Shown: positions 6,107-58,512 of the stretch, piece after piece | Layout of the letters: every line of letters begins with the position of its first letter | Position numbering within the stretch: position 1 is the stretch's first letter | From: a bacterium | Lineage (GTDB): Bacteria > UBA4055 | Reading direction: 5' to 3' | DNA: 64,000 bases | Assembly: GCA_029559475.1 (NCBI GenBank) | Contig: JAKQBN010000055.1 | Location: 62,001-126,000, forward strand | Notes under the pieces: model-generated | Seen by the model: the letters and a program-made list of their open reading frames with translations, nothing else | Databases searched by the model: none | What the model was told of the DNA's origin: nothing | Translations under genes and position numbers: made by a program

Positions 6107-8164
6107 ATGAAACTTTTAGGAAATATTATCGCTTTGCTGATTGTTGTAGTAATACTTGCAGGATGCGTAAGCACTGCGTATAAGACCGCAACTATTGCGA
6201 ATACGATTGCATCTTACGATCAATTCCTTAGAAATCATCCTGGCAGTCAATTTGAATCTGATGCCCGGAGTCGGCTCGACTCGCTGTACTTTCAGAGTAC
6301 CGAGTGGGAAGGTTCGATCCAGGCGTATGAGAACTTCCTTCAAGTGCACAAGAACTCTCCCTATATAGCAGAAGCCCGGAGTCGGCTCGACTCGCTGTAC
6401 TTTCAGAGTACCGAGCGGGAAGGTTCGATCTATGCGTATGAGAACTTCCTTCAAGTGCACAAGAACTCTCCCTATATAGCAGAAACCCGGAGCCGGCTCG
6501 ACTCGCTGTACTTTCAGAATACCGAGAAGTACTGGGCAGCTGCGCAAGAGACCGACAATATCGAAGGATATGTGGCATTCCTTGATGAACATCCCGGGTC
6601 GTCTCGTACAAAGGAGGCAACAGCACGAAAAGAATTGCTCGAAAAACACTTGGACGAATGGAAAGATGTCATGCGTAATCCTACCAGGCAGAGTCTCATG
6701 CTTTACTGCGACCGGAATTCGGATAGCCCTTACCTCACAAAAGCAAGGGTTGTAATTCAGGACATGGAAGGACGCGACATCGTCGATCTCCTGAATGAAA
6801 AAAAAGTCGAGATTGAGACCAATGGCAGTGGAATTCAGGAGATAAGAGCCCGTATCCGGAAGCTTGTAGATTATCCTATAAGGGTTCTTTTTCCTATTGG
6901 TAGCTACTTTGTCTCCTCCAGGCTGTCGGCGCAGAACATGGTATCGACAGCAGAGACGAGCATGCATCTTACAGGCAGCGAATGGAAATCGGTTTCGATA
7001 TCGGCAGCATGCGCTAATAGACTAAAGCATATTCCTGGTTCAGAAGACACGTTCACTGTTCAGCGATTATATTTGGAGGAACTGGCTAGAATTATGCCTG
7101 TTCTTGATAAGGCAGGTGTGAGTTACGAAACACGCCAAGCAGCAGTATGGATTGTGACGGACAATGCCGATTACAATGATCTTGGAATCCTTGTCCAAGA
7201 CGACAGAAGTCGAGAAATAAACGAACTTGAAGCGGCGCGTGCCATGAAGATTTGCGTCGAAGCTGGTATTGATATCCGGCTGAAGAGAATCTGGAGCGAC
7301 TGGCAGGAGATTATTACTGGATTGCATGACGCTGAATTGAAGACATGGTTCGCTATTTACGGAGCACATTTTCTTGATTCAGATAAAAAAAGTGCTAAAG
7401 ATCGAAATAACAAAAAGGTACAGAAAAATATTGAAGCAATCCCTGAAATGGTATTTGTGGAGGGTGGTACGTTTCAGATGGGAAGTACTAGCGGAGATCA
7501 AGATGAAAAGCCTGTTCATAATGTAACACTTTCTGATTTTTACATCGGCAAGACTGAGGTGACACAGGCGCAGTACCAGGCTGTCATTGGCGAAAATCCG
7601 TGTTGTTTTAAAGACGATAATTTACCGATAGTAAATGTGTCTTGGTACGATGCAGTTAATTTCTGCAATAGGCTTAGTGAAATGGAGGGACTGGATATTT
7701 GTTACAGTGAAAACGATTTTAAAATTACCTGTAATTTCAAAGCCAAAGGGTACAGGCTCCCGACTGAGGCTGAATGGGAGTATGCAGCAAGAGGGGGGAA
7801 TAATAGCAAAGGATACAAGTATTCCGGAAGCAACAATGCAGATGATGTTGCCTCAGAGTATGGTTCGAATCCATATTCTGTAGCAGCAAAACAGCCTAAT
7901 GAAATTGGTATATATGATATGAGTGGAAATGTCTGGGAGTGGTGCTTTGATTGGTACCGCAGTTACATGAACAGTCCAAGTAATAATCCAACAGGGCCAA
8001 GTTCGGGCTATAATATAATCTGCAGTGGCATCTGGGACCACTTTGTCGGGTTCTGCCGCGTCCTACGGGGCGGCGACTGGAAATACCGGTGTGTTGATCG
8101 ATACTACTATCCCCCATGGCGCAGAATCAACCGCGTCGGCTTTCGTGTCGCAAGGACGCCTTGA
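6107..8164 (+). CDS. Lipoprotein with TPR-like repeats and C-terminal FGE-sulfatase/C-type-lectin-like domain
   Basis: A 685-aa envelope protein. The signal ends VVVILAGC with the lipidated Cys at 20. Residues about 30-145 hold TPR-like repeats, including a 111-bp tandem duplication. A middle region of unknown fold runs to about 440. From about residue 446 to the end is an FGE-sulfatase (SUMF1-like) domain: FVEGGTFQMGS, GKTEVTQAQYQ, YRLPTEAEWEYAARGG, GNVWEWCFDWY, RVLRGGDW and a closing GFRVA. Most bacterial members of this size are binding or structural domains rather than sulfatase activators, and no sulfatase is nearby. The last 45 codons are more GC-rich and strongly C-ending compared with the rest of the gene, and the GGDW-to-GFR interval is shorter than usual. 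ATG 6107 gives a proper signal peptide. Confidence 0.9.
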   Translation: MKLLGNIIALLIVVVILAGCVSTAYKTATIANTIASYDQFLRNHPGSQFESDARSRLDSLYFQSTEWEGSIQAYENFLQVHKNSPYIAEARSRLDSLYFQSTEREGSIYAYENFLQVHKNSPYIAETRSRLDSLYFQNTEKYWAAAQETDNIEGYVAFLDEHPGSSRTKEATARKELLEKHLDEWKDVMRNPTRQSLMLYCDRNSDSPYLTKARVVIQDMEGRDIVDLLNEKKVEIETNGSGIQEIRARIRKLVDYPIRVLFPIGSYFVSSRLSAQNMVSTAETSMHLTGSEWKSVSISAACANRLKHIPGSEDTFTVQRLYLEELARIMPVLDKAGVSYETRQAAVWIVTDNADYNDLGILVQDDRSREINELEAARAMKICVEAGIDIRLKRIWSDWQEIITGLHDAELKTWFAIYGAHFLDSDKKSAKDRNNKKVQKNIEAIPEMVFVEGGTFQMGSTSGDQDEKPVHNVTLSDFYIGKTEVTQAQYQAVIGENPCCFKDDNLPIVNVSWYDAVNFCNRLSEMEGLDICYSENDFKITCNFKAKGYRLPTEAEWEYAARGGNNSKGYKYSGSNNADDVASEYGSNPYSVAAKQPNEIGIYDMSGNVWEWCFDWYRSYMNSPSNNPTGPSSGYNIICSGIWDHFVGFCRVLRGGDWKYRCVDRYYYPPWRRINRVGFRVARTP
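6261..6527 (+). repeat. 111-bp in-frame tandem repeat inside the FGE lipoprotein gene
   Basis: Units start near 6261, 6372 and 6483 (two full, one partial), each 111 bp or 37 codons, marked by CCCGGAG(T/C)CGGCTCGACTCG at 6264, 6375 and 6486. The two full copies are almost identical at DNA level, indicating recent duplication. Each unit encodes RLDSLYFQ and ENFLQVHKNSPYIAE, a TPR-like helical pair. Confidence 0.9.
8024..8164 (+). other. Compositionally distinct C-terminal segment with DGR variable-region character
   Basis: From about 8024 the gene shifts from AT-rich to GC-rich codons. Many positions are NNC codons (ATC, GAC, CAC, TTC, TGC, TAC), as expected if AAC codons of a template had been mutated at adenines. 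It sits at the extreme C-terminus of a C-type-lectin-like FGE domain, the usual place for a diversity-generating-retroelement variable region. No reverse transcriptase or template repeat is visible in the window, so this is a hypothesis. Confidence 0.3.
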
Positions 8165-41566: not shown

Positions 41567-44392
41567 ATGTGCATTCAATCGGAAGCGACTTTAGAGAAAA
41601 AACTCATCGAGCAGCTTGAAATTCAGGGCTATGAAAAGGTCATTCTGCATGATGAAAAAGATCTTATTTCGAATTTTAAGACGCAGTTGGAAAAGCACAA
41701 TAAGACGATTTTTTCGAAATCAGAGTTTAATAAGATACTCAATCATTTAGACGGCGGAACGATATTCGAGAAATCGAAAAAGCTGCGCAATAAGTTCGAG
41801 CTTTACAGAGATGTCGGCACTCTTTCCTACATAGAATTTTTTAATACAGAAGAATGGTGCAAGAACGAATTTCAGGCATCAAACCAGATAAATTTGGCGG
41901 AAAGGTACAAGAACCGCTACGATGTGACGATCCTGATAAACGGGCTGCCTCTCGTTCAGATCGAACTTAAAAGGCGCGGGATCGAGCTCAAAGAGGCATT
42001 CAATCAAATATGCCGCTATAAAGATCATTCGTTCAGGGGACTCTTTTTATACCTCCAGCTTTTCATCATCTCGAACGCGGTCAACACAAGATATTTTGCG
42101 AATAACAGAACGCTTAATTTTAAGCAGAGCTTCTGCTGGACGGATGAGAAGAATGAAAAATTCAACAGGCTGAACGAATTCGCCGATATTTTCCTGGAAA
42201 AATGCCATCTCGCCAAGATCATTTCAAAATATGTCGTCCTGAACGAATCCGATAAATTTTTAATGGTGCTCAGGCCATATCAATATTACGCGGCTGAAAA
42301 GATAATCAAGCGCGTAGCCGGAAAAGTTGACCGGAACGGCTATATCTGGCACACGACCGGATCAGGCAAGACGCTCACTTCATTCAAGGCGAGCCAGATA
42401 CTGACCGCTGACAAGGATGTGGACAAGGTCGTCTTTGTCGTTGACAGGAAAGATCTCGACTTCCAAACCATGAAGGAGTTCAATAAATTCTCGAAAGGCT
42501 CGGTTGATGCGACTGACGACACCATAATGCTCGTTAAACAGCTTTCCGACGAAAAGACGAAGCTTATCATAACAACGATACAGAAGCTCAACAATGCGGT
42601 CAGCAGGGTCAAATTCAACAATAAACTCGGCGACGTATCTAATAAGCGTATAATATTTATTTTTGACGAATGCCACAGGAGCCAGTTCGGCGAAACCCAC
42701 AAAAGGATAAAAGATTATTTTAAGAACAGGCTTTTCTTCGGCTTTACGGGCACTCCGATATTCGAGGAGAACAGCGTAGGGTTTACGACTACGAAAGATC
42801 TTTTCGGGTCATGCCTGCACAAATATATCATCAAGGACGCAATAGACGACGATAATGTGCTCGGTTTTTCCGTCGAGTACTATTCCACTTTCAGGTCAAA
42901 ACTTCTAAAGGAAGAGAACGGGGATGATCTCGACGTGGATGAAATGGATAAGGTAAAAGGCATCAACAAAGATGAGGTGTTTTCAGCGGATGTCAGGCTG
43001 TCAAACATAGTTGATTTTATCATAAAGAATCACGACAGAAAGACATATAACAAGGAATACAACGCGATATTCGCGGTAAGCTCAATTGAGACGCTTTTAA
43101 AATACTATGAGCTTTTCAGGAAGAAAAAGCATAACTTAAACATAGCGACGATCTTTTCATATCAGGCGAACGAGGAGCTTGAGGATCAATACGGCAACCA
43201 TAACGAGAGAGAGAACTGGAGCATGGTGGCTGAGGAGAGAGCACCTTACGGCGATAAGCAGGTTCATTCGAGAGAAAAGCTCGATCTGATCGTGAACGAT
43301 TATAACAAAACTTTCAAGACGAACTTCGACCTGAACAAGGACAACGGCTTCAACGCATATTTTGTGGATGTTTCCAAAAAGGTGAAGGAAAAGAAGATAG
43401 ACATTCTACTTGTGGTCAACATGTTCTTAACGGGATTCGACAGCGTTTTCACCAATACTCTGTATGTGGATAAGAACCTGCGCTATCACGGGCTTATTCA
43501 GGCATTTTCGAGAACGAACAGGGTGCTTGGGGAAAAGAAGAAATACGGCAATATCGTCTGCTTCAGAAACCTCAAGAAGAGAACAGACGAAGCGATAGTT
43601 TTATTTTCTAATCCCGATGCGATAGAAACCGTTTTAATGAAAGCCTACACGGAATACGCTGCAGATTTTAACAAAGCTCTCGAAGAGCTAAAAAACATCA
43701 CACCGACAATAGATTCGGTTGACAAGCTCGAAGGCGATGAGCAGAAAGCACTTTTCGTCAAAGCTTTCAGGAACCTTTTACGGATCATGAACAGGCTTGT
43801 GACCTTCACCGAATTCAAATATGACGATCTGACCATTACAAGGCAGGAATTTGAGGATTACAGGAGCAAATATTTAGACATCCGCGACGAAACGAAAGAC
43901 CCTGATAAGGAATCTATCTTAAAAGACCTCGATTTTGAGGTCGAACTTGTGCGCAGGGACGATATCAATGTGGATTATATCTTAAAGCTGTTAAAAGACC
44001 TCGACATGAACGATTCCGGATTTGTTAAAGACGTGGAATTTATCTTAAAGACCATGGAAGGCTCGGACGAACTCCGCAGCAAGCGCGAACTGATCGAAAG
44101 GTTCATTAAGGAAAACCTGCCGGAATTAGGCACAGACGCGAATGTGGAGGAAGAATTCGACAAATTTATCTCGGTCGAAAAGGAAAAAGAGATAGGGGAG
44201 ATGATAAGATCAGAAAAGCTGAACAAAGAACTCGTTTACGCAGTGGTCGAGGAATATGAATTTTCGAACAAATTCCAGCGCGATAAGATCAAATCGGCAC
44301 TCGTCGGCAACCTTAAACTCTCGGAACGGAAAAGAAAGATCGAACAATTGGAAAACAGCATAGAAAGCATCGTGAATAAATATAAATGGTAG
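41567..44392 (+). CDS. hsdR: Type I restriction enzyme R subunit (HsdR)
   Basis: Motor and nuclease subunit of a type I R-M complex, 941 aa. Order: N-terminal PD-(D/E)XK nuclease with VQIELKRRG (Glu and Lys near residue 131), helicase Walker A HTTGSGKT (near 262), DECH box IFDECHRSQFG (near 365), FGFTGTPIFEE, and motif VI-like QAFSRTNRVLG. The C-terminal helical part is rich in charged residues. Length is in range. It is followed by hsdM (7 bp), so the system is R-M-(DUF1016)-(unknown)-S. Cleavage requires HsdS, which is broken here. Confidence 0.96.
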   Translation: MCIQSEATLEKKLIEQLEIQGYEKVILHDEKDLISNFKTQLEKHNKTIFSKSEFNKILNHLDGGTIFEKSKKLRNKFELYRDVGTLSYIEFFNTEEWCKNEFQASNQINLAERYKNRYDVTILINGLPLVQIELKRRGIELKEAFNQICRYKDHSFRGLFLYLQLFIISNAVNTRYFANNRTLNFKQSFCWTDEKNEKFNRLNEFADIFLEKCHLAKIISKYVVLNESDKFLMVLRPYQYYAAEKIIKRVAGKVDRNGYIWHTTGSGKTLTSFKASQILTADKDVDKVVFVVDRKDLDFQTMKEFNKFSKGSVDATDDTIMLVKQLSDEKTKLIITTIQKLNNAVSRVKFNNKLGDVSNKRIIFIFDECHRSQFGETHKRIKDYFKNRLFFGFTGTPIFEENSVGFTTTKDLFGSCLHKYIIKDAIDDDNVLGFSVEYYSTFRSKLLKEENGDDLDVDEMDKVKGINKDEVFSADVRLSNIVDFIIKNHDRKTYNKEYNAIFAVSSIETLLKYYELFRKKKHNLNIATIFSYQANEELEDQYGNHNERENWSMVAEERAPYGDKQVHSREKLDLIVNDYNKTFKTNFDLNKDNGFNAYFVDVSKKVKEKKIDILLVVNMFLTGFDSVFTNTLYVDKNLRYHGLIQAFSRTNRVLGEKKKYGNIVCFRNLKKRTDEAIVLFSNPDAIETVLMKAYTEYAADFNKALEELKNITPTIDSVDKLEGDEQKALFVKAFRNLLRIMNRLVTFTEFKYDDLTITRQEFEDYRSKYLDIRDETKDPDKESILKDLDFEVELVRRDDINVDYILKLLKDLDMNDSGFVKDVEFILKTMEGSDELRSKRELIERFIKENLPELGTDANVEEEFDKFISVEKEKEIGEMIRSEKLNKELVYAVVEEYEFSNKFQRDKIKSALVGNLKLSERKRKIEQLENSIESIVNKYKW

Positions 44393-44399
44393 GCAATAA

Positions 44400-45947
44400 A
44401 TGACAAAGCAGAAGCTCGAACGGAAATTATGGGACATAGCGGACACTTTACGCGGAAATATGGGTGCGGATGAATTCAGGGACTATATTCTCGGCTTTAT
44501 TTTTTATAAATTCTTATCGGAAAAGATCGAAAAATTCGTTTCAGATGAGCTTAAATCGGACAAATTGAGCTTTGAAGAGGCTATGAAGGATAAAGAGCTT
44601 TCGCATGACTTAAAAGAGGAATGTATCGAAGATATGGGCTTTTTTATCGAACCGGCAAACTTATTCAGCAGGATAGCGGAAAGGGCAAAGAACAGAGAGT
44701 TTATTATTGAAGATCTCGGCCGCGCTTTAAAATCGGTAGAGGAAGCCACCATCGGGCATAAGAGCGAGGAGGATTTCGCGGGGCTTTTTGAGGATGTTGA
44801 TCTTACTTCGACAAAGCTCGGAAGAACGGTTGAACAGAAGAACAAGCTCATTTCGGAAGTTATCAAGCACATAGCGGAAGTTGATTTCAGGCTTGAGGAT
44901 ACGGAGGCGGATGTTCTCGGCGACGCTTATGAATATCTGATCTCACAGTTCGCGAGCGGAGCGGGAAAGAAAGCGGGAGAGTTCTATACGCCCCAGCAGG
45001 TATCAAAAATACTGGCAAAGATCGTCACTACGGGCAAGACAAGGCTAAAATCTGCTTATGACCCAACATGCGGCTCGGGATCTTTACTTTTGAGGGTATC
45101 GAAGGAATGTAAAGTATCGGACTTCTACGGGCAGGAATTAAACACCACCACTTTCAACCTGGCGAGAATGAATATGATTCTCCATTCGGTCAAATACAAC
45201 GATTTTCACATAACGCAGGGAGACACTTTAGAAGAACCGCACGACCTCGACAAACGCTTTGAGGCAGTGGTAGCCAATCCGCCATTCTCCGCGCACTGGG
45301 CGGCAAACCAGACCTTCTTATCGGACGAAAGATTCAGCCCGTACGGAAAACTCGCGCCCAAAACAAAGGCGGACTTCGCATTCGTTCAGCACATGCTCTA
45401 TCAGCTTGACGAAAACGGAACAATGGCAATAGTCTTACCTCACGGAGTACTATTCAGAGGAGCAGCGGAAGGCGAGATCAGAAAATACATCATAGAGGAA
45501 AAAAACTGGCTCGATGCCGTCATCGGACTACCCGCGAACATCTTTTACGGAACATCAATACCCACAGTCATACTAGTATTCAAAAAATGCAGAACAGAAT
45601 CCGACAGCATACACTTCATAGATGCAAGCCGGTCTTACGAAAAAGCCAAAAATCAGAACAATTTACGCGATGAAGATGTCGAAAAGATCATAAGCACATA
45701 CAGGAACAGAACTCAGGAAGAAAAATACTCGCACTCAGCCTCAATAGAACAGATCAGGCAGAACGACTACAACCTAAACATTCCCAGATATGTCGATACA
45801 TTCGAAGAGGAAGACGAAATTGACCTCGATAAGATCGCGCAGGAACTCAAAAACATCGAAGCTGACATAAAACTCACAGACAAAAAGATCATCGCGCAGT
45901 GCAAAGAACTCGGAATCACCCCGCCCGTGTTTGGAGGAGAAAAATGA
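44400..45947 (+). CDS. hsdM: Type I restriction-modification methyltransferase (HsdM)
   Basis: N6-adenine methyltransferase subunit, 515 aa. Helical HsdM_N domain (LERKLWDIADTLRGNMGADEF), then SAM motif I DPTCGSGSLLL, catalytic motif IV ANPPFSAHW and TDY-like later motifs. AGEFYTPQQVSKIL is the standard HsdM entry to the catalytic domain. Its TGA overlaps the ATG of the DUF1016 gene (ATGA). Without an intact specificity subunit, methylation depends on whether the truncated HsdS still assembles or another HsdS exists elsewhere. Confidence 0.97.
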   Translation: MTKQKLERKLWDIADTLRGNMGADEFRDYILGFIFYKFLSEKIEKFVSDELKSDKLSFEEAMKDKELSHDLKEECIEDMGFFIEPANLFSRIAERAKNREFIIEDLGRALKSVEEATIGHKSEEDFAGLFEDVDLTSTKLGRTVEQKNKLISEVIKHIAEVDFRLEDTEADVLGDAYEYLISQFASGAGKKAGEFYTPQQVSKILAKIVTTGKTRLKSAYDPTCGSGSLLLRVSKECKVSDFYGQELNTTTFNLARMNMILHSVKYNDFHITQGDTLEEPHDLDKRFEAVVANPPFSAHWAANQTFLSDERFSPYGKLAPKTKADFAFVQHMLYQLDENGTMAIVLPHGVLFRGAAEGEIRKYIIEEKNWLDAVIGLPANIFYGTSIPTVILVFKKCRTESDSIHFIDASRSYEKAKNQNNLRDEDVEKIISTYRNRTQEEKYSHSASIEQIRQNDYNLNIPRYVDTFEEEDEIDLDKIAQELKNIEADIKLTDKKIIAQCKELGITPPVFGGEK

Positions 45948-47065
45948 AATATGATAAACTTATAGAAATACTTGAGACAACTCATTCAGATATGCAGTAT
46001 CAGGCTTTCAGATCCGTTGATATTGCGTTAATTATCCGTAACTGGCTGTTCGGATTTTATCTGGTCGAATATGAGCAGAACGGTGAAGACAGGGCTGAAT
46101 ACGGCGCAAGGCTGATTGAAAATATCTCCCAAGATTTAAGAAACAAAGGTGTCAAAGGCGTTTCACCCACAAATCTGAAAAAGGACAGAGAGTTTTATAT
46201 TGAGTATAAACAAATTCGACAGACAGTGTCCGTCGAATCTTTGGTTCAGCCTCAAAAAAAAGCAACCTCAGGCACAAATATCCAAATTCGACAGTCAGTG
46301 ACCGTCGAATTGGCAAAACAATTCAAATTAAGCTGGACGCATTATGTTAGTCTGTTGACCATTGACGATATAAATGAAAGAAAATTCTACGAGATAGAAT
46401 CGATAAACAATTCGTGGGGCGTAAGAGAACTCAAAAGACAGATCGCTTCTTCGTTGTATCAGCGGCTTTCAGTCAGTAAGAATAAGGCTAAATTGAAACA
46501 GCTGTCTCAAAAAGGTCAGATCATTGAAAAACCTGAAGATTTCATAAAAGATCCGTTTATACTTGAATTTGCCGGAATAAAAGAAAAGAGCCGGTACTCA
46601 GAATATGATCTTGAAACAGCGCTTATAAACAAACTGGAAATGTTCCTTTTAGAGCTTGGCAAAGGCTTTTTATTCGAGGCAAGACAGAAAAGATTCACAT
46701 TTGACGATGACCATTATTATGTTGATCTCGTATTTTACAACAGACTGCTTAAATGTTATGTTCTGATTGATCTCAAGCGCGATAAACTTACGCATCAGGA
46801 TCTCGGTCAGATGCAGATGTATGTGAACTATTTTGACAGATATGTTAAGCTTAAAGATGAAAATCCGACAGTCGGGATCGTATTGTGCCACAGGAAAAAT
46901 GACGCTTTAGTAGAACTCACACTCCCTGAAAATTCTAATATATTCGCTTCAAAATACAAATTATATTTACCGACAAAGGAAGAATTAAAACGGCAGCTTG
47001 TAAAAGAAATAGGTATGGTCAAAGAAGAAATGGCACTTTACGGAACTCAGCGGAAAGGAGAATAA
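45944..47065 (+). CDS. DUF1016 (YhcG-type) PD-(D/E)XK nuclease-like protein
   Basis: A 373-aa protein: DUF1016_N domain (ALIIRNWLFGFYLVEYEQ, LSWTHYVSLL-type LSWTHY, WGVRELKRQI) followed by a nuclease domain with YYVDLVFYNRLLKCYVLIDLKRD (Asp then D-x-K) and QMQMYVNYFDRY. Such proteins commonly travel with type I R-M genes and are thought to be accessory nucleases; the exact role is unclear. ATG 45944 is used (upstream frame to 45899 lies inside hsdM). Two 25-nt palindromes at 46214 and 46286 encode repeated IRQTV/IRQSV peptides just before the LSWTHY motif. It ends at the ATG of the next gene. Confidence 0.9.
   Translation: MKYDKLIEILETTHSDMQYQAFRSVDIALIIRNWLFGFYLVEYEQNGEDRAEYGARLIENISQDLRNKGVKGVSPTNLKKDREFYIEYKQIRQTVSVESLVQPQKKATSGTNIQIRQSVTVELAKQFKLSWTHYVSLLTIDDINERKFYEIESINNSWGVRELKRQIASSLYQRLSVSKNKAKLKQLSQKGQIIEKPEDFIKDPFILEFAGIKEKSRYSEYDLETALINKLEMFLLELGKGFLFEARQKRFTFDDDHYYVDLVFYNRLLKCYVLIDLKRDKLTHQDLGQMQMYVNYFDRYVKLKDENPTVGIVLCHRKNDALVELTLPENSNIFASKYKLYLPTKEELKRQLVKEIGMVKEEMALYGTQRKGE
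46214..46238 (+). repeat. 25-nt palindromic repeat, copy 1, inside the DUF1016 gene
   Basis: ATTCGAC and GTCGAAT arms around AGACAGTGTCC; 11 of 12 base pairs match around a central G. Confidence 0.8.
46286..46310 (+). repeat. 25-nt palindromic repeat, copy 2, inside the DUF1016 gene
   Basis: Same arms around AGTCAGTGACC. It differs from copy 1 only at positions 10 and 16, which pair with each other (A-T becomes T-A). Confidence 0.8.
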
Positions 47066-47917
47066 ATGAAATCAGATTTTCAGAAATACTTGAACAAACA
47101 GAACAGCGGAGCATTAAACGACTTTGACGGACTTTCACCCGACACAATGCACAACATTCTGTATTCATCCTTCCAGAAAAACGGCCTGATCCGGATTAAC
47201 GCGGACATATCGGCTGAAGCTATAAATCAGGTGCCTGTCTTCAAGCTCGTCAAACATTTTATGCGGATACTTGAGCGTGAAAAACAGATAAAGCTCACAC
47301 AGGCCGAATACCTGCCTCCAAAGTATGTGAAGGAACTTTACGAAAGCACCGTACTCAAAGATGACGCGGTTGAAAGTGGAATAGTAAAGCTTACAGGCGA
47401 AAAAGATGTCATTATCATATTTGTTGCCCGCATTCTGGCCAAGTTATGCGGATATACAAAATTGAGGAACAATGTTATAACTATAACAAAAGCAGGCGAA
47501 CAGGCACTAACCGACGATCGGGAGCTATATTTCGGGTTAATGGACGCTCTCATATCTAAATTCAACTGGGGATTTGAATCCGTCAGACAGGACGACGGTT
47601 TCATCCAAAGGTCAGTCGGCTACACTTTATACCTTCTCAAAAAGTACGGGAACGAATACAGGGAATCAAGATATTACTACAACAAGTTCTTTAAAGCTTT
47701 CCCCGCCTCAATGAACGCGTTCGATTTCGATCCCGATCCAAAATATAAGACCATGTCTCACTGGTGGGCTTACCGTAACAGAATATTCAGAACATACCTG
47801 ACATACATGGGCGCGGTCGAATACGAGATCATCTATAATAAAGAGGAACACACCGAGACCGATCAGGTCAGAAAAACAAAATTGTTCGATGAAATATTCA
47901 CAATAAACATAAAATAA
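47066..47917 (+). CDS. Unknown protein embedded in the type I R-M locus
   Basis: A 283-aa protein I cannot assign. It begins with a charged helical part, then LSPDTMHNILYSSF, IKLTQAEYLPPKYVKELY (a small domain seen in some IS- or plasmid-associated unknowns), a hydrophobic helix VIIIFVARILAKLCGY, and a C-terminal half rich in Tyr, Phe and Trp (SHWWAYRNRIFRTYLTYMG). No signal peptide or catalytic motif is evident. It starts 1 bp after the DUF1016 gene and ends 11 bp before hsdS, so it is co-transcribed with both. An R-M accessory or anti-restriction role is conjecture. Confidence 0.7.
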   Translation: MKSDFQKYLNKQNSGALNDFDGLSPDTMHNILYSSFQKNGLIRINADISAEAINQVPVFKLVKHFMRILEREKQIKLTQAEYLPPKYVKELYESTVLKDDAVESGIVKLTGEKDVIIIFVARILAKLCGYTKLRNNVITITKAGEQALTDDRELYFGLMDALISKFNWGFESVRQDDGFIQRSVGYTLYLLKKYGNEYRESRYYYNKFFKAFPASMNAFDFDPDPKYKTMSHWWAYRNRIFRTYLTYMGAVEYEIIYNKEEHTETDQVRKTKLFDEIFTINIK

Positions 47918-47928
47918 GAACAGAAATA

Positions 47929-49026
47929 ATGAAAAGCCATTCAGATAAAAACACAAAACAACCAAAACTCCGCTTCCCCGGTTTCACAGAAGAGTGGCAG
48001 GAAAAAAGACTGGGGGAAATTGGGAAAATAACTACGGGTAGCACTCCGAGCACTTTCGTAGAAAAATACTATAACGGGGAATACCTATTCGTATCTCCTT
48101 TCGATATTAGTGATAAGAAATATATTTTTACTACACAAAAAACGCTTACTGAAGAGGGATTTAAGAAAACAAGAAATATCAAAAAATGCAGTGTATTATT
48201 TGTTTGTATAGGTTCGACAATAGGAAAAATTGCCGTAGCGGGTACGGATTTAGCGACAAATCAACAAATCAATGCAATAACATGCGAGCATGAAGCCCAG
48301 AACGAATTTGTTTATTACTCGTTATTGAAGAAAGCAGATCAAATAAAACTCATGGCTGGAGAGCAAGCCGTTCCGATAATAAATAAATCAAACTTTGAAA
48401 CTGTTAAGTTACCAATGACTTCACCAGCAGAACAAAAGAAGATCTCAGAATTCCTTTCCGACATAGACACAAAGATCGAAAAACTCACCCGCAAAAAAGA
48501 ACTCACCGAGCAGTACAAAAAAGGAGCAATGCAAAAAATCTTCTCGCAGAAAATCCGCTTCAAAGATGATAACGGAAAAAATTATCCTGACTGGCAAGAA
48601 AAGAGGCTGGGTGAGGTGGCTACGATAAAAAGAGGAGCAAGCTCTCAATATTTAAAATATGTTAATAATTCTTCTGAAGGTGTAAGGCTGATTAGAATCA
48701 CTGATTTCTTAGAAAGTGAACCAGTATTTATCAAGGAGAGTCTAGAATTAGATAGGTTCAAACTAAAAAAAGATGATATCCTTATTGCAGGTACTGGAGC
48801 AACAGCAGGTATTACTTTCAAAGTACCAGATAAATTTATCGGTATGGTTTATAGCTATAACGTTCCTCAGATCACTCCTGTTTCATGTGATCCTAATTAT
48901 TTAATTCAATTTCTCAAGTCCGATTCGATCTCTAAACAACAAGAAGGTTTATTTACAGGTAATGCACAGCATTTTTTAGACATAAAGGCAATTTCAAACT
49001 TGAAATTACCTTTACAATGTGCATAA
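47929..49026 (+). pseudogene. hsdS: HsdS specificity subunit, 3' truncated by IS21-family element
   Basis: Two target-recognition domains in the usual order. The first follows PGFTEEWQEKRLGEIGKITTG, the conserved coiled coil is around KISEFLSDIDTKIEKLTRKKE, and the second follows YPDWQEKRLGEVATIKRG. The reading ends KLPLQCA, where the IS left end begins at 49018; Cys364, Ala365 and the stop come from the IS. The C-terminal coiled coil expected after LKLPLP is missing (roughly 40-60 aa lost compared with usual HsdS). It may assemble poorly or as a half-type subunit. Confidence 0.88.
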
Positions 49027-49069
49027 TTCTTGCGAAAGTGACCAGTCAATTCCTGTCAAAGTGTTACAG
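49026..49069 (+). repeat. IS21 left terminal repeats L1 and L2
   Basis: ATTCTTGCGAAAGTGACCAG (49026-49045) and ATTCCTGTCAAAGTGTTAC (from 49049) are similar tandem transposase-binding-type repeats. Confidence 0.8.
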
Positions 49070-49145
49070 ATAATCTGATATAAAATAAAAGTTTTCCACT
49101 TCAAGAACTCCTATTATATTCGCTCCGAACAAAAGAGGAGCGGAT

Positions 49146-50777
49146 ATGTCAAACAGGAGGCTTGATATGATAAATGTTCAACACCTGATACGGCAACTGG
49201 CTGAAGGCAAGTCGTATCGGGTAATAGGCACAAATCTGGCGATATCGCCGACAACTGTCAAGAAATATGCGAAGTATATCAGAAAGAACGGTCTTAATGT
49301 CGAAGAGCTTAAGGGAAAACCGCCATCCGAGCTGGAGACTATTATAGACATAGCGGATCCTGCAGAAAGGCAACGAGCGGAAGAAGCTTTAACATGTATC
49401 AGGAAACATGAAAGTTCTTTGGTTGCAAGGCGGCTGACACGAAAAGATGTCTATGAAAAATATAGAATAGATATAGAATCTCCTCTAAGCTACAGCCGTT
49501 TCTGCGTAAAAGTAGAAGATGAACTTAAGAAAAGCGGCGCAACAATGCACTTTAATCACAAGCCAGGCGACAAGCTGTTCGTTGACTTTGCCGGAGACAA
49601 GCTGTGTTATTATGAAAAAGAGACAGGCGAGAAGATATCTGTTGAGGTCTTTGTGGCTGTTCTCGGACACAGTCAGAAGACCTTTGTCTTTGCGGTACAT
49701 AGCCAGTGTAAAAACGATTTTATAGAGTCACTTAAGCGTGCGTTCGAATACTACGGAGGTATACCATGCGCGATAGTACCGGACAATCTGAAATCAGGCG
49801 TAAATAAAGCAAGCTTATATGAACCTGAAATGAACAGGAGCTTCAAACACTTTTGTGAACATTACGGCTGTTTTGCTTATCCCGCAAGGCCGCGTTCTCC
49901 AAAAGACAAGAGCCTTGTCGAGAATGCCGTAGGCAGAATGTACAGAGACATTTACACGCACATAAAAGCCTGTAAATACTACTCGATGGAAGAGTTGAAT
50001 GCGGCTATACTTGAAAAGCTTGAAGAATCGAACAATAAACCGTTCCAGCGTCGTGATTACAGCAGAAATGATCTTTTTGAAAGTAATGAAAAGGACTGCC
50101 TTAAGCCGTTGCCTTCAAACGAATATGAGACAGTAGATTTTTACAGTGCCACAGTCAGGCGCGATTATCATATCTGGTTCAGGCCTGACAAGCACCAGTA
50201 CAGCGTACCTTATGAATACATAGGCAAAACATTAAAAGTTATTTACAATACAGATACCGTAGAGATATTTTACGGATACACAAGAATAGCCTTGCATAAG
50301 AGAAACAGATCAAGATACGGCTTTACCACAAACCCTGAACATATGCCGGCAAATCATAAATACATGGCTGATCTTACTCCTGAAAATCTGATGAAGAAAG
50401 CTGAAGAAATAGGCGTTTATACATCATCTGTAATCGAAAAAATACTCGGATCAGGCAACTATTATGATCAGAGAATAAGAAGCTCAAGAGGAGTACTGTC
50501 GCTTGCAAATAAGCTCGGAAAAGAAATTATGGAACAGTGCTGTAAACGGGCTTTATCATACGGTATTTATAATTACAGACAGCTAAGAAACATAGCGGAT
50601 ATGAAGCTGTATCTTGAAGAAGATATAACCGTAACCGGCGGGTATATAGACAACCATCAAAACAAGAGAGGTGTTGAATATTATTTTGCGACACTTTTAC
50701 AGGAATCGTGTGACACTTTGACAAGAATCAGCTACAATAATACAGAAATACAAACGAAAACGGAGGCGGAATGTTAA
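49146..50777 (+). CDS. istA: IS21-family transposase IstA
   Basis: DDE transposase of 543 aa. N-terminal helix-turn-helix (LIRQLAEGKSYRVIGTNL, SPTTVKKYAKYI), an RNase H-like rve core with the first Asp in GDKLFVDFAGD, the second in AIVPDNLKSGV, and the Glu in SPKDKSLVENAVGRMYRD, then a beta-barrel C-terminal region (YSVPYEYIGKTLKVIY). All three acidic residues look intact, so it is probably active. It overlaps istB by 7 bp. Near its end, codons at 50700-50728 reproduce the IS right-end repeat. Confidence 0.96.
   Translation: MSNRRLDMINVQHLIRQLAEGKSYRVIGTNLAISPTTVKKYAKYIRKNGLNVEELKGKPPSELETIIDIADPAERQRAEEALTCIRKHESSLVARRLTRKDVYEKYRIDIESPLSYSRFCVKVEDELKKSGATMHFNHKPGDKLFVDFAGDKLCYYEKETGEKISVEVFVAVLGHSQKTFVFAVHSQCKNDFIESLKRAFEYYGGIPCAIVPDNLKSGVNKASLYEPEMNRSFKHFCEHYGCFAYPARPRSPKDKSLVENAVGRMYRDIYTHIKACKYYSMEELNAAILEKLEESNNKPFQRRDYSRNDLFESNEKDCLKPLPSNEYETVDFYSATVRRDYHIWFRPDKHQYSVPYEYIGKTLKVIYNTDTVEIFYGYTRIALHKRNRSRYGFTTNPEHMPANHKYMADLTPENLMKKAEEIGVYTSSVIEKILGSGNYYDQRIRSSRGVLSLANKLGKEIMEQCCKRALSYGIYNYRQLRNIADMKLYLEEDITVTGGYIDNHQNKRGVEYYFATLLQESCDTLTRISYNNTEIQTKTEAEC
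50700..50728 (+). repeat. IS right-end-like sequence inside istA
   Basis: CAGGAATC, then GTGTGACACTTTGACAAG, then AATC, nearly the same as the IS right end at 51565-51594 in the same orientation, but embedded in the istA coding region. Confidence 0.75.
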
Positions 50778-51523
50778 ACGAAAATACATTGTCAAAAATG
50801 AAAGAGATGAACCTGACAGGAATGTATGATGCATTTAAGCTAACTCTTAGCCTGAATGACTATAAGAAAATGACTTGCGATCAGCTAGCGGCATCTCTTG
50901 TTGACGCAGAATACGATAACAGGCGAAACAAAAGACTTGCCCAAAGGTTAAGTACAGCTAAGTTGCGTTATCCGGCATCAGCTGAACAGGTTGACTTTAA
51001 TGCGGATAGAAAGCTCGATAGAAACCTGTTCATGAGACTTACAGACTGCAACTACATCAGACAGGCTGAGAATGTTATAATCAGCGGTATGACGGGCACA
51101 GGTAAAAGCTATATAGCCTGCGCATTAGGACATCAGGCTTGTATAGCAGGATATAAAGTTATATATCACAACTTCAACAAACTCATGGCTAAGCTAGTAA
51201 TGTCAAGAGGAGACAACTCGTATCTAAAGGAAATAAATAAGATAGCCGGCTACGATCTTTTAATCATAGATGACTTCGGCCTACAAACAATGGATCATGC
51301 CTCAAACATATCACTCCTTGAAATACTCGAAGACCGCTACGGCTCGAAATCTACGGTCATAGCTTCTCAGATCCCGCCTGAAAACTGGTATGCTCTCTTC
51401 AATAGCTCAACTATAGCTGATGCCTGCTTAGACAGAATAATACATAATGCGCATAAAATGGATATTACAGGGGAATCTATGAGAAAGAATAAAAAGGTTG
51501 CAGCGAAGAAAAAGAATGGTTAA
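50771..51523 (+). CDS. istB: IS21-family helper ATPase IstB
   Basis: AAA+ ATPase that selects targets and stimulates IstA; 250 aa. N-terminal helical part (MKEMNLTGMYDAFKLTL), Walker A GMTGTGKSY, Walker B DLLIIDDFGLQ, sensor-like STVIASQIPPENWY and the closing LDRIIHNAHKMDI typical of IstB. GGAGG precedes its ATG inside istA. The final residues are a basic Lys tail. Length is normal. Confidence 0.96.
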   Translation: MLNENTLSKMKEMNLTGMYDAFKLTLSLNDYKKMTCDQLAASLVDAEYDNRRNKRLAQRLSTAKLRYPASAEQVDFNADRKLDRNLFMRLTDCNYIRQAENVIISGMTGTGKSYIACALGHQACIAGYKVIYHNFNKLMAKLVMSRGDNSYLKEINKIAGYDLLIIDDFGLQTMDHASNISLLEILEDRYGSKSTVIASQIPPENWYALFNSSTIADACLDRIIHNAHKMDITGESMRKNKKVAAKKKNG

Positions 51524-53353: not shown

Positions 53354-53558
53354 TTTCCCCTCTCCTTACTCTTGTATTTAATTTTTTTAATTTTTGATAT
53401 ATCAATGTTATAAAAAACTTGTGCTTATAATCCGTACTTCTTCTATACATTTCTTACTTTCTCAAACTTATAATAATTTAATTTAACATTTCTCAGTTAT
53501 CTGTTTCAACTGTTTCCGTATTATTTTTTATTTTTTCCATTTTTAGCTTCGATTTTTG

Positions 53559-54884
53559 TTATATGAACTGATGTCTGTGTTCGGGATATACTAGAGATGG
53601 GGTACTGATCTGTCGGATCATCTGGTCGGCCTGAGCCTTTATTTCATGATAGCCGTTCTTTTGTGCCAGCTCGATGGACTTTTTGTAACATTCAACAGCT
53701 TTTTCAGTATTATAAAGTTCTTTTACGATCAGTCCGCAGTTCAGGTAGAATAATGCTAAAGCTTTTTCGTCATTGAGCGATGATACAATGCTGTGCGCCT
53801 TATTTAAATGATAGATAGAATTTTTACTGTCCTTAATGATCCTGTGACAGTCCGAATAGAGCATATATATCTGGTATCTGTACAGGTTCTGTCTGTCGGC
53901 CGGCAGAGAACGGATCCTGAGTAAAGCGGATTTTAAAAGGTATTTTGTCGTCTCGGAATTGCTTCGGATGATCGATATCTTTGATCTTTTGATTATGGCA
54001 TTTATCAGCAGCTCATCATCGGATCCTGAACCTTCAAGAATGTGGATCAGTTTCTCGCAGATATTGTCTGAAGTCTCGTGATTTTTATTCTTTCTGTGCT
54101 GGACCGCGGCGCTGTACTTTGCTTTAAGATCGCTTATCGTTTTTTCAGTATCGAAAAAATTCCCGCAGTCATACACGATGTCTGAATGCATGGTCATGTT
54201 GACTTTTTTTATAAAACTTTTGAATTTATTTGATTTTAACGCGGATCTTTCCAGAATTATCTGATTGTTCAAAGAGACCGTAGCCAACGAATCGAAAAGG
54301 AAATCACAGATGTTCTCGTATCTTGTCCTTTCTTTTAAATAATTATATTTTTTTAGGGAAAAATTAACATATTTTCTTATCTCTTTATAATGTTTCAGAA
54401 TAAATTCTATATCTTTGTATCTGCTTCTATCAACATCGAATATTTCGCAGGATTTATCTATAAATAGCCTTTTTATTCTGATCCCCGATCTTTTGCAGTC
54501 TGAAATGAATTGAGCTATGAACTGACTTAGGATCCGTTTTTCTTTTACGGGCGAATATGCGCAGAATACAAATCCGTGATTAATGTCTTTTATGAGATAT
54601 CTGAATACAGGTTTTTCTTTTTGCAGCGGATACAGTTCCGATACTTTTAATACAAGTTCTGAAAGCGGACTGCCGTTAGCCTTATAATTATCGTTTCCGT
54701 CTTCTTTTTTCTTTTGACTTTTATTCTTTGAAAGAAGACCGTTCTTTTGTGAGTTGATCCAGTTTCTTATTGTTCGCGGAGTTATCCCGTGAATTTCTGC
54801 AAGTTTTTTTATTTTTTTTCTGCTCGTAGCCTGTTTTATAACTTTCAGCTTTTCCTCGACGGACTTACGCATAATAATGCTCAT
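53559..54884 (-). CDS. HTH - integrase-core-like - TPR protein (shorter paralog)
   Basis: A 441-aa protein with three parts. Residues 1-55 form a transposase-type helix-turn-helix (KLAEIHGITPRTIRNWINS). The middle, from YLIKDINHGFVFCAYSP through IKRLFIDKSCEIF to NYLKERTRYENICDFLF, resembles the RNase H-like core of IS481-type transposases, with Asp and Glu kept at two catalytic positions but the first Asp not evident. From about 280 on, helical TPR repeats follow (IYHLNKAHSIVSSL, ALFYLNCGLIVKEL). It is similar along its whole length to the 705-aa neighbour. A DNA-binding regulator derived from a transposase is my reading; no function is known to me. Confidence 0.72.
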   Translation of the reverse strand: MSIIMRKSVEEKLKVIKQATSRKKIKKLAEIHGITPRTIRNWINSQKNGLLSKNKSQKKKEDGNDNYKANGSPLSELVLKVSELYPLQKEKPVFRYLIKDINHGFVFCAYSPVKEKRILSQFIAQFISDCKRSGIRIKRLFIDKSCEIFDVDRSRYKDIEFILKHYKEIRKYVNFSLKKYNYLKERTRYENICDFLFDSLATVSLNNQIILERSALKSNKFKSFIKKVNMTMHSDIVYDCGNFFDTEKTISDLKAKYSAAVQHRKNKNHETSDNICEKLIHILEGSGSDDELLINAIIKRSKISIIRSNSETTKYLLKSALLRIRSLPADRQNLYRYQIYMLYSDCHRIIKDSKNSIYHLNKAHSIVSSLNDEKALALFYLNCGLIVKELYNTEKAVECYKKSIELAQKNGYHEIKAQADQMIRQISTPSLVYPEHRHQFI

Positions 54885-54914
54885 TTTAATTTTCGGTTAA
54901 TGTTTTATAAGCAA

Positions 54915-54943
54915 AATTTAATGCATAAAAAAGCTGAATTCAA
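54915..54943 (-). promoter_or_regulatory. Promoter of the shorter HTH-TPR gene
   Basis: Minus strand: TTGAAT (54938-54943), 17 bp, TAAATT (54915-54920). Confidence 0.5.
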
Positions 54944-55008
54944 TTATTGCCGGATATTTTTATATTTTTTCCGTTTTTAGCTATGTTTTTAAAAATATGA
55001 AATAACTT

Positions 55009-57126
55009 TTATACCTGATGCAACTCTAATTGTTTTTTCACAAAGTACATCTGTTCTTCAGTATCGTATAATTTACTTTTTAGCAGTTCCTGCAGATAAA
55101 TTTTATAAGCTTCTTTTTTGTTCGTCTTATAAAAATCAGACTTTTTTTCTAATATTACTGAAGAATAAGCATAGAATTCATTTGAATCTGAATCTGCTTT
55201 CTTATTAAGGATTTTTAAATTCGCTTTTGCCTTTTTAAAATCTCCGGACTCTATGTGCAGTTCGATTAATACCGTCAAAGCTTTGAGATAAGGGAATGGA
55301 TTTCCTTTTGTTGTCTTTGCTATTTCTATTGCTGATAATATTTCCGATTCAGCCTTTACGAACTTTTTTTCAATTTTTGAGATCATTCCGTTATATAAAG
55401 GCAAATTATACTTCTGTGAAGTATTATCCGTATTCTCCAAGAGCAGAGAAACCTCGGACAATCTGCTTTTTACATCGGAAATTCGTCCTGATTCAATTTC
55501 AGACAGACACAAATTCAGCATATTATCTATAAGCGGTACTTTCAGGTTGTTTTTTTGCGATAATTCAATATTGTCTTCAAATATTTTCCCGGCTTTTAGA
55601 AATTCATTCATTTTTATATACGCCACGGCTTTGTTGCCCGATACAGGGATTCGAATGGTGGTCAGCACAGCAGGATTATCTGATCTGTCAATAATTTCAA
55701 CGGACTTATCATAAGCTTTAATGCTTTCCGATAATTTTCCCGCGATCTGAAGACAGTCTCCGTATTTTGCCCATAGAACTACTTTCTGAACGAACATGTT
55801 TTTATATAGATCATCGGCTATCATTTTTTCGTATAATTTTATTGCTTCTGAAGTATTACCTCTTTTTACGTTGTAATCAGCTTTATTCTCTTTTACCGCA
55901 AGAAGGATGTCGTCGAATTTATTCTTCTCGGCTAATACTTCGGACTTGAGTAAGAATTCTTCAGCTTTATCAAATGTACCTGTATTCTTATAAAATAGGG
56001 AATAATTTATGTAAAATATTGCCTTGTTCCTTTCATTGCTGTCTGCTTCAACTTGTCGTCTTGCTTTTTCAAAGAAATAAAGGCACTTTCTGTTTTCGTT
56101 TGTCAGTCTGTAAACATCCGCGTAAAGCATATAGCCTGCATACTTAAACCCGCTTATTTTATCAGCCGGAAGTAATTTCGCCATTTTCATAGCCTTCGAA
56201 AAGTATTTTCTTGCATTAACCATATCTTTTTTTAATGCATAGACCTTCCCTATCTGGATCAGTATTTTTGCGTACAGTTCCGAATAAGATCCCGAATCTT
56301 TTAAGATCACTTCTATCCTTCTGTAACGGTCATCCGAATTCACAAGATCGAATTTTTTATGGATTTCGAGAGCCTGATCGAACATTTTTGTCAGTATTTC
56401 GCCTGATCTGCTTTCGTCAAAGCTTTTAACTTCATCGGAAAGAATAGCCGAATGATACTTTATGTTCAGCTTTTTTACAGATTCGAAACATTTGGAAGAT
56501 TTTACAGCCTTATATTTTTCTAATGCTGTATGATTGTTTTTTGCTGTCGTAGCCATAGAATCAAATAAAAATTCATTATTGTTTTCGTATTTTGTTCTTT
56601 CTTTCATAAAACTATTGTGCTTTGTTGTAAAAGTCAGATGTTTTTTGATCGAAGTGTTGTTAACGCAGGTCAGTATTGTGCCTGTAGATTTTAGATCACT
56701 AACATGATTTCTTTTATCTGTAATAATTTTCTTTACTGTTATTCCTGATTTTTTCAGGTCTGAAAGAAAGAGATTTAAAATTTCTTTGAAATATCCGTTA
56801 GAGTTGTCGGATGAATACGCGCATAGAATAAATCCGCGGTTTATATCTTTTAAAAGATGCCTGTAAACAGTTTGATCTTTCAGAACAGAATATACAAGTG
56901 AAACTTTATAAACCGATTCGCTGAAAGGTCCTGATATTTTTTTACTCTTTTGAGGACTTTTCGGATCAGGATCCTTTTTGCCGTTAAGTTCGCCTGCTTT
57001 GTAAAGCGCGATCCAGTTCTTTATGGTTTTTTCGGTAATCCCGTGCTGGATGGCGAGTTTCTTTATCAGCTTTTTACTTTTCGCCTGTTTTACGATCTCT
57101 AATTTCTCGATCAATGATCTGGTCAT
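55009..57126 (-). CDS. HTH - integrase-core-like - TPR protein (longer paralog)
   Basis: A 705-aa protein with the same plan as its neighbour: N-terminal HTH (KLAIQHGITEKTIKNWIA), a degenerate integrase-like core (HLLKDINRGFILCAYSSD, VKKIITDKRNHVSD, NSFMKERTKYENNNEFLF), then a long TPR array from about residue 290 to 690 (ARKYFSKAMKMAKLLPADK, AIFYINYSLFYKNTG, SIKAYDKSVEIIDRS). The TPR region is about twice that of the paralog. Ribosome binding site GAGGGG precedes ATG 57126. An operator-like palindrome lies at its promoter. Downstream sequences of the two paralogs (53521-53568 and 54957-55008) are also alike, pointing to tandem duplication. Regulatory role inferred. Confidence 0.72.
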   Translation of the reverse strand: MTRSLIEKLEIVKQAKSKKLIKKLAIQHGITEKTIKNWIALYKAGELNGKKDPDPKSPQKSKKISGPFSESVYKVSLVYSVLKDQTVYRHLLKDINRGFILCAYSSDNSNGYFKEILNLFLSDLKKSGITVKKIITDKRNHVSDLKSTGTILTCVNNTSIKKHLTFTTKHNSFMKERTKYENNNEFLFDSMATTAKNNHTALEKYKAVKSSKCFESVKKLNIKYHSAILSDEVKSFDESRSGEILTKMFDQALEIHKKFDLVNSDDRYRRIEVILKDSGSYSELYAKILIQIGKVYALKKDMVNARKYFSKAMKMAKLLPADKISGFKYAGYMLYADVYRLTNENRKCLYFFEKARRQVEADSNERNKAIFYINYSLFYKNTGTFDKAEEFLLKSEVLAEKNKFDDILLAVKENKADYNVKRGNTSEAIKLYEKMIADDLYKNMFVQKVVLWAKYGDCLQIAGKLSESIKAYDKSVEIIDRSDNPAVLTTIRIPVSGNKAVAYIKMNEFLKAGKIFEDNIELSQKNNLKVPLIDNMLNLCLSEIESGRISDVKSRLSEVSLLLENTDNTSQKYNLPLYNGMISKIEKKFVKAESEILSAIEIAKTTKGNPFPYLKALTVLIELHIESGDFKKAKANLKILNKKADSDSNEFYAYSSVILEKKSDFYKTNKKEAYKIYLQELLKSKLYDTEEQMYFVKKQLELHQV

Positions 57127-57171
57127 ACATAACCCCTCTTAATTTATTACTTTTCGCCAATATCGTTTTAC

Positions 57172-57186
57172 ATCACTTTTAGTGAT
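57172..57186. promoter_or_regulatory. Operator-like palindrome at the start of the longer HTH-TPR transcript
   Basis: ATCACT-TTT-AGTGAT, perfect 6-bp arms, directly next to the -10 box (57187-57192), covering the expected transcript start. A likely binding site for an autoregulator. Confidence 0.5.
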
Positions 57187-57215
57187 AATTTATAAAAGAC
57201 TGAATGAATAATCAA
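57187..57215 (-). promoter_or_regulatory. Promoter of the longer HTH-TPR gene
   Basis: Minus strand: TTGATT (57210-57215), 17 bp, TAAATT (57187-57192). Confidence 0.6.
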
Positions 57216-57267
57216 GATATATTAAACGTGATCGATAAATCAGCGGAGTTGAAATAATCTTAAAATA

Positions 57268-57297
57268 AAAAAGGCAGTACATAATTACTGCCTTTTT
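57268..57297 (-). terminator. Rho-independent terminator after the VWA lipoprotein gene
   Basis: Perfect 12-bp stem AAAAAGGCAGTA / TACTGCCTTTTT with a 6-nt loop, 37 bp past the stop at 57334. It is followed by A/T runs on both sides. Confidence 0.9.
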
Positions 57298-57333
57298 ATT
57301 CAAAACCGGAATACCCGGTCATGTTCTTCAGAT

Positions 57334-58512
57334 CTAGTAATTAGCTTTGACTGTTACTTCCCCGTCCGAAGTTCCTATATCGATCACTATACGAATATCT
57401 TTTTCCGTGCCGTCAGTTTTAGATGTTTCAAATTCAACAAGCGAAGATGCTGCTGTGACTTCAACAATCGGAAGTGTAGTAAGATCAACATATCCTGTAT
57501 AATCACCTGCTCCGAAAATATCGAACCACATTCCTCCTGTTCCGGCAGATGTATATGAAATTTCATTCAGAATTAAATTTCCCGGTTGAGCCAGCCAGTG
57601 CATATCGTAAGCGCCATTTTCAAGATAAGTATAATCTGGTGTCGGGGATACGACGTGGACGGTTGCATATCCTTCAAGAGCTGCCGCAAGTTCATCGGTT
57701 CGCCATGGAGAATGAGACGTTCCCGATCCGACAGGAGCGCCTTCACCCCATGTGGATACATCTGTAAGGACTATGAACATTTTCTGCGCGCCTTCTCTCC
57801 ATGTAAAATTGTTGTAAGCCCACCATATAGCATCAAATCCGCCTTCGGGGCTATCACCACCGTCATATCCTTCATAACCTGCATACAAGCTGTCAACGAA
57901 TTTGTAAACCGGTCCTGTTGTATCGATCTTGGTAGTAATATTTTCATAGTCTACAACTACATAAGCTCCTGGATCATTATCGTCGGGTATTCCATTAATT
58001 TCAACAGGAATTCTCGAATCGTAATTATCTGCATATGCTACTGCTCCTGCTGCGACATTTATTCCTTCTGATTTCATGTTTTTTAAGAAATCAGTAACGC
58101 TGGCTCTGACACCGTCTATTGTTCCGCTCATCGAACCTGTTACGTCGATTATAAAAACGATATCCGTTCCCAAAGAGATAGTGCCGTCGTTATTTGTAAT
58201 TTTTATACCCTGAACTACTCCGTCTTCAACCACTGTCAGGTTCTCGGTCGTGTAGATAATAGGATCACCTTTGCTTACATTTAAAAGTCCACCGACATTG
58301 AGTTTGACTCTTGTAGGATTAGACGGATCTACTTTAACCGCTACGTTCGGTTTGAGCGGTCCGCTTTTTACTGCCGGTGGAAGAGTCCCCGGATCTGCAG
58401 GTATATCGGAATTATCAACTACTATCGGTTCCGACGATTTTTCATCACTACATGACCATATGAACATACCGGCTATGATAACTGCCAATGTTAAAAACTG
58501 CCATTTTTTCAT
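57334..58512 (-). CDS. Lipoprotein with von Willebrand factor A domain
   Basis: A 392-aa protein. Signal ends GMFIWSC with Cys21 as lipidation site. A short Pro-rich linker and a beta domain precede the VWA fold, whose MIDAS motif reads FIIDVTGSMSG (Asp123, a D-x-T-x-S variant of DxSxS), with KMFIVLTDVSTWGEG further on. The remaining part (VDLTTLPIVEVTAASS) is a small beta domain. It would bind a protein ligand through a metal ion on the envelope surface. Single-gene unit with its own promoter and terminator. Confidence 0.9.
   Translation of the reverse strand: MKKWQFLTLAVIIAGMFIWSCSDEKSSEPIVVDNSDIPADPGTLPPAVKSGPLKPNVAVKVDPSNPTRVKLNVGGLLNVSKGDPIIYTTENLTVVEDGVVQGIKITNNDGTISLGTDIVFIIDVTGSMSGTIDGVRASVTDFLKNMKSEGINVAAGAVAYADNYDSRIPVEINGIPDDNDPGAYVVVDYENITTKIDTTGPVYKFVDSLYAGYEGYDGGDSPEGGFDAIWWAYNNFTWREGAQKMFIVLTDVSTWGEGAPVGSGTSHSPWRTDELAAALEGYATVHVVSPTPDYTYLENGAYDMHWLAQPGNLILNEISYTSAGTGGMWFDIFGAGDYTGYVDLTTLPIVEVTAASSLVEFETSKTDGTEKDIRIVIDIGTSDGEVTVKANY

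Follow-up and report, generated by a model that had tools for sequence, protein, structure and literature searches.

The window, i.e., the whole 64,000-nucleotide stretch of DNA that was analysed, carries on its reverse strand two tandem genes encoding proteins of 705 amino acids (55009–57126) and 441 amino acids (53559–54884), exactly where an earlier note on this DNA had placed them. The two proteins are side-by-side paralogs, as that note had proposed (36% identity over 414 amino acids, E 2e-70), and share the same layout. Both start with a transposase-type HTH, located at residues about 4–53 of the 705-amino acid protein (56968–57117; Pfam HTH_28 at residues 7–53, E 7.6e-7, and HTH_Tnp_1) and at residues 11–50 of the 441-amino acid protein (54735–54854; HTH_28, E 9.8e-7). 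The window proteins contain one HTH each, whereas IS481 transposases and most members of the family described below contain two. The NCBIfam models for IS3 and IS481 match both proteins far under the cut-off, essentially through the HTH only. The HTH is followed by a middle region, at residues 64–242 of the longer protein (56401–56937) and 68–248 of the shorter one (54141–54683), and then by TPRs. The latter are strong in the 705-amino acid protein (residues about 254–700, 55027–56367; TPR_12, E 1.7e-14, TPR_2 and TPR_MalT) and weak in its paralog, in which TPR-like helices span residues 272–427 (53604–54071) with a weak TPR_12 match at residues 339–409; the C-terminal helix pairs of this shorter protein are predicted mostly at pLDDT 77–93, about 90.

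A direct repeat of 63 nucleotides on the forward strand is present just after the 705-amino acid gene (54939–55001) and again at 53505–53567, where it overlaps the end of the 441-amino acid gene. The two copies are 76% identical and are likely the trace of an old tandem duplication, the second copy of which would then have been shortened in its TPR part. Upstream of the pair, a terminator-like hairpin on the reverse strand (57268–57297) closes the gene of a vWA lipoprotein and suggests that the pair forms a separate transcription unit. The region upstream of the 705-amino acid gene (57127–57267), which includes ATCACTTTTAGTGAT, contains the perfect palindrome ATCACT-TTT-AGTGAT (57172–57186). 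This palindrome has a single exact copy in the genome and its near-matches are just slightly above the control, so that it can be viewed as a weak operator candidate; a role as a genome-wide operator is unsupported. In agreement with the earlier note, no IS-like terminal repeats or pair of ends were detected around the two genes (53354–57400 examined). The neighbours of the pair encode the vWA lipoprotein and a secreted lipase-like protein, both on the same strand, and the pair sits beside mutS2 in a variable region, at a site that was searched for in other genera and is not shared by them.

Two other parts of the window were interpreted by eye. What looks like a type I restriction-modification locus (41567–51523) comprises hsdR, hsdM, two extra genes and an hsdS-like gene ending at 49026; an IS21 istA/istB pair (49146–51523) directly follows the latter, and its insertion may have interrupted this gene. 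A 685-amino acid protein (6107–8164) contains near-identical repeats of about 40 amino acids (YENFLQVHKNSPYIAEARSRLDSLYFQ) followed by what resembles a formylglycine-enzyme-type domain.

Relationship of the middle region to IS481 transposases

A DDE core was recognised in the middle region by neither Pfam nor NCBIfam. Core-only profiles, excluding both the HTH and the TPRs, were compared by hhalign, the E-values being those of single comparisons. The core of the window subfamily matches true IS481 transposases with a score of 37.6 (E 1.3e-4), the core of its sister family with a score of 69.4 (E 7.7e-9, probability 95.8), and the two cores match each other with an E-value of 2.2e-6. In controls, the best of 60 column shuffles reached 23.8 for the window subfamily and 12.0 for the sister family, and the reversed profiles 16.7 and 13.1, respectively. 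The score of 37.6 exceeds every shuffle and reversed profile, so that the likeness of the core goes beyond chance. A second profile line came from a search of 386 genomes with the HMM of the window subfamily, which matched three near-identical IS481 copies in one genome (G152, E 1.5e-4) over query positions 47–147, i.e., mostly the core.

The AlphaFold model of residues 64–242, based on three sequences, is of low confidence (pLDDT 55, pTM 0.50). It predicts the order strand-strand-strand-helix-strand-strand-helix, as in RNase H-like domains. The 50 top rows of a Foldseek search with this model correspond to retroviral integrases plus one IstA, and VIA-align superposes it on residues 56–208 of HIV integrase with a Z-score of 10.1 over 129 residues at 3.2 A. 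The modest quality of the model lessens the weight of this fold evidence, not that of the two profile lines. In the whole-protein model of the 441-amino acid protein, the core was too weak to be used for the fold test, and neither window protein matches the sequences of solved structures. Taken together, the core-only profiles, the subfamily HMM and the low-confidence predicted fold agree with the earlier suggestion, for which a structure prediction had been proposed as a check, that the middle region is related to the RNase H-like core of transposases.

The complete DDE catalytic triad is not present in the window proteins. At the position of the first Asp, the alignment places a Lys in both proteins (SESVYKVS and SELVLKVS), which falls near D64 of HIV integrase according to the range of the structural match (model residue 3 corresponding to HIV residue 56). 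The second Asp is present in both (IITDK and LFIDK). The earlier note had stated that the second Asp and the Glu were kept and that the first Asp was not evident; both statements on Asp hold, but the Glu is not kept. The ER...EF stretch read as containing it (KERTKYENNNEF) is out of register, aligning with FDSRQEFFAKATTY, the segment that follows the catalytic Glu of transposases, and the window proteins have His or Tyr in the catalytic column itself. With a Lys in place of the first Asp and His or Tyr in place of the Glu, strand transfer is unlikely, as had been anticipated, and the alignment indicates that the window proteins have almost certainly lost the ability to transpose.

The closest relatives of these proteins are IS481-family transposases of the group with the motifs RDVxTG..F.AYA, QTDNGSEF, DVETxHRLIEDEF and LPPxxLD, whose HTH and core are homologous along their length to those of the family, a likeness that, for the sister family, extends to the PPxxxD motif near the C-terminus. 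Unlike them, the window pair lacks the full DDE triad and terminal repeats, has TPRs added and has lost one HTH. Alignments, profiles and models thus support the view that each window protein derives from the capture of an IS481-type transposase, now inactive and joined to TPRs, and we consider it very probable that they originated from such a transposase and that their core is dead.

A multi-member family in Delongbacteria

Searching with the IS481 model revealed, in the Delongbacteria, the phylum to which the genome with the window belongs, many proteins of about 690–900 amino acids with an IS481-transposase-like start. A profile built from nine family proteins (profile A3) gave matches in each of the 13 Delongbacteria genomes sampled, 9 of which are of good quality, with a total of about 50 family genes or gene fragments and up to about 20 in a single genome (G002). 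Most members contain both HTHs, the core, with motifs resembling 'TGIxFVGYSYERSxxxIAIFxDYIIxxLKxxG', the C-terminal motif 'IPPIIVDNFI', equivalent to 'LPPVDLDELL' of IS481, and the TPRs. According to the residue tally, no family member has an Asp at the first catalytic position. The search across genomes for conserved architecture and synteny that the earlier note had proposed recovers the HTH(-HTH)/dead core/TPR arrangement throughout the Delongbacteria genomes, with some conserved gene contexts. Five members (L144 4644–6320, L136, L138, L140 and L141) retain the core and the TPRs with no recognisable HTH, L144 bridging the window subfamily and the sister family.

Among the matches of profile A3 in about 500 sampled genomes from outside the phylum (373 genomes, then 123 drawn from two phyla, one of them that of G152, with some genomes being non-independent), no fusion to TPRs was found; the strong matches are frames of at most about 430 amino acids, of which the intact ones are transposases. 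Two frames are longer and match weakly through the HTH, and neither was accepted as such a fusion, since the first (863 amino acids, G065) looks like a SpoIIE-type phosphatase with an HTH and the second (G256) like an ordinary integrase. No relative of the window proteins was detected in viral contigs, and a scan of genome contigs yielded one member of the window subfamily. A broken IS481-type transposase in two ORFs, one with the HTH part and the other with the QTDNG...DVETSHRLIEDEF part, is present in G007:C36 (L027 / L151). The genomes of the Delongbacteria yielded no other element of the donor group, and a plasmid collection searched with this remnant gave no match.

In the maximum-likelihood tree, all 11 transposases lie to the same side of one branch (98/94) and the window subfamily is nested among other family members. 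This topology, in which many branches are long, is consistent with one domestication followed by radiation. The genome containing the window encodes a third, stop-containing paralog (G000:C55), the three copies sharing 27–36% identity. Several near-identical copies, as formed by an active IS481 transposase, were not found in this genome, and the family appears vertical and divergent. Neither of the observations that the earlier note had named as contrary to its proposal, a middle region unrelated to RNase H or IS ends around genes present in many identical copies, was made when both were looked for. Two other species of the genus to which the window belongs have no member of the window subfamily.

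Selection was estimated for the sister family, with approximate domain limits, on the two closest ortholog pairs, more distant pairs being saturated and left out. The dN/dS values for the HTH, core and TPRs are 0.02, 0.10 and 0.05 in one pair and 0.06, 0.05 and 0.19 in the other, and the comparison of L099 with L103 gives a dN of 0.10 for the dead core versus 0.55 for the TPRs. Close orthologs of the sister family, as distinct from the window pair, are under purifying selection, dead core included, so that this core is kept for something besides catalysis. The family shows the features that define a domesticated transposase: it is homologous to transposases, it is neither catalytic nor mobile any more, and it has been retained over the long term by selection (the last point in the sister family).

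The third paralog of the window genome and an intact gene of G004 share a context near a cluster resembling mreC-mreD-mrdA (names assigned by reading the sequences), and in these two genera both adjoin a divergent gene for an SLT/LysM lytic-transglycosylase lipoprotein. Exported proteins are frequent among the products of genes next to family members and include a lytic transglycosylase, an M23 peptidase, a lamin-tail protein with a CHU_C tail, Por_Secre_tail proteins and an FG-GAP lipoprotein. After ortholog groups were collapsed, a signal peptide was predicted for 11 of 16 divergent neighbours versus 53 of 141 background genes (p 0.017), and a T9SS-like C-terminus for 6 of 16 versus 6 of 141 (p 3e-4). 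Because orientations were compared post hoc and the signal-peptide rule was home-made, we regard this modest enrichment for exported and T9SS-tailed proteins as a lead only. The window pair, with its lipoprotein and lipase-like neighbours, fits the pattern loosely.

Two other associations were observed. A tRNA-Sec gene (Rfam RF01852, 54.8 bits; L119 5836–5931, reverse strand), missed by ARAGORN, lies directly upstream of the family gene, between it and its neighbour, in one ortholog group (L118, L119, L124 and L126), the four genomes being split evenly between the genus of the window and a second genus. As general insertion sites, tRNA genes were discarded, ARAGORN having given scattered tRNAs only. 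In two genera, the family gene touches or is overlapped by a DprA gene (L100 3751–4830, confirmed by Pfam, and L109 2473–3549).

Putative function and biological meaning

An HTH and TPRs in a single chain, as seen in the window proteins, form the layout of a one-component regulator. Together with the exported neighbours, this layout makes local regulators of exported-protein genes the best reading of the family, and we favour, with a probability of roughly 0.7, the explanation that these proteins are domesticated dead IS481 transposases acting as one-component regulators with a TPR sensor. According to this scenario, the DDE residues of an ancestral two-HTH IS481 transposase would have disappeared and a TPR array would have been added at its C-terminus; the gene, no longer mobile, would have multiplied by duplication, one HTH being lost in the window pair. 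The HTH region would bind DNA near its own gene, the dead RNase H-like core would perhaps serve as a dimerisation or DNA-contact module, and the TPR superhelix would bind a peptide or protein partner that alters DNA binding. The usual targets might be the gene itself and the adjacent genes for exported or cell-envelope proteins, an assignment that we make tentatively for the latter. The earlier note had proposed a DNA-binding regulator with a TPR sensor built from a transposase; the transposase origin and the TPR fusion are borne out by our data, and DNA-binding regulation is a role that we infer as probable.

The exported-protein genes adjoining family genes could also point to a TPR scaffold or co-chaperone, e.g., one that helps to export the adjacent envelope proteins, with the transposase part used for oligomerisation only, and the members without HTH (L144, L136, L140 and L141) would suit such a role. 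Most members nevertheless keep recognisable HTHs, on which purifying selection is strong in the two closest ortholog pairs, and we consider this alternative unlikely. The conserved transposase-like DNA-binding part would also be expected of host-side silencers, i.e., dead transposases competing with cognate IS481 elements for the IS ends, and a broken element of the same group does occur in one Delongbacteria genome (L027, G007:C36). However, no intact IS481 element of this group was detected in the Delongbacteria genomes, a single genome can harbour up to about 20 family genes with greatly diverged HTHs, and silencing leaves the TPR part and the exported-protein neighbours unexplained, all of which makes this reading very improbable. 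Finally, the idea that the two window genes are relics in decay, being lost from the genome and with no present function, as the shortened 441-amino acid copy, the stop codon of the third paralog and the two species of the genus devoid of the window subfamily could indicate, has little chance of being correct, given that both window ORFs are long and intact although decay occurs elsewhere in the genome, and that conserved residues are common to the window proteins and other genera.

The regulator reading can be compared with known systems. In RRNPP proteins (PlcR, ComR and Rap) and MalT-like regulators, an HTH or output domain is likewise combined with a ligand-sensing TPR-type superhelix; unlike them, the window family has another type of HTH and a transposase core, and no signal peptide gene was identified. 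No RRNPP-type match was obtained in Pfam, NCBIfam or PDB sequences, the likeness of fold being confined to the generic TPR part: in the whole-protein model, this part resembles LGN, Rap, PlcR and ComR among many TPR folds, a predicted similarity that names no ligand. The anti-phage defence models of PADLOC gave no match up to an E-value of 0.01, and PHROGs gave mainly a transposase HTH match. We found no paper on the Delongbacteria family in the open-licence literature.

The derivation of transcription factors from transposases is a classic eukaryotic theme. A bacterial case that lends itself to testing is offered by the present family, in which dead IS481 transposases joined to a new sensor domain occur across a phylum and are kept by selection. 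The nearest eukaryotic analogy may be FHY3/FAR1, plant transcription factors that form a multi-member family and stem from the domestication of a DDE-type transposase (PMC13306707); these proteins are Mutator-like and eukaryotic, and are not known to have a TPR sensor. In bacteria, the nearest analogy in concept would be TldR, RNA-guided repressors derived from TnpB in which a transposon nuclease became a catalytically dead regulator (PMC13418256); they belong to another enzyme class and are not known to have TPRs, and nothing suggests a guide RNA here. A 2022 review of the recruitment of prokaryotic mobile elements covers regulators derived from phages and toxin-antitoxin systems, and the terms DDE and IS481 are absent from it (PMC8987985).

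We give about even odds to the broader proposal that a single ancient IS481 domestication provided one phylum with its own multi-member family of transcription regulators, in which the dead integrase core would be a DNA-binding or dimerisation module, the TPRs would act as sensor and many members would be tied to a nearby exported-protein gene, making the family a bacterial counterpart of FHY3/FAR1-like factors. With about 50 natural variants of a catalytically dead integrase core, it also offers a probe of the non-catalytic uses of this fold.
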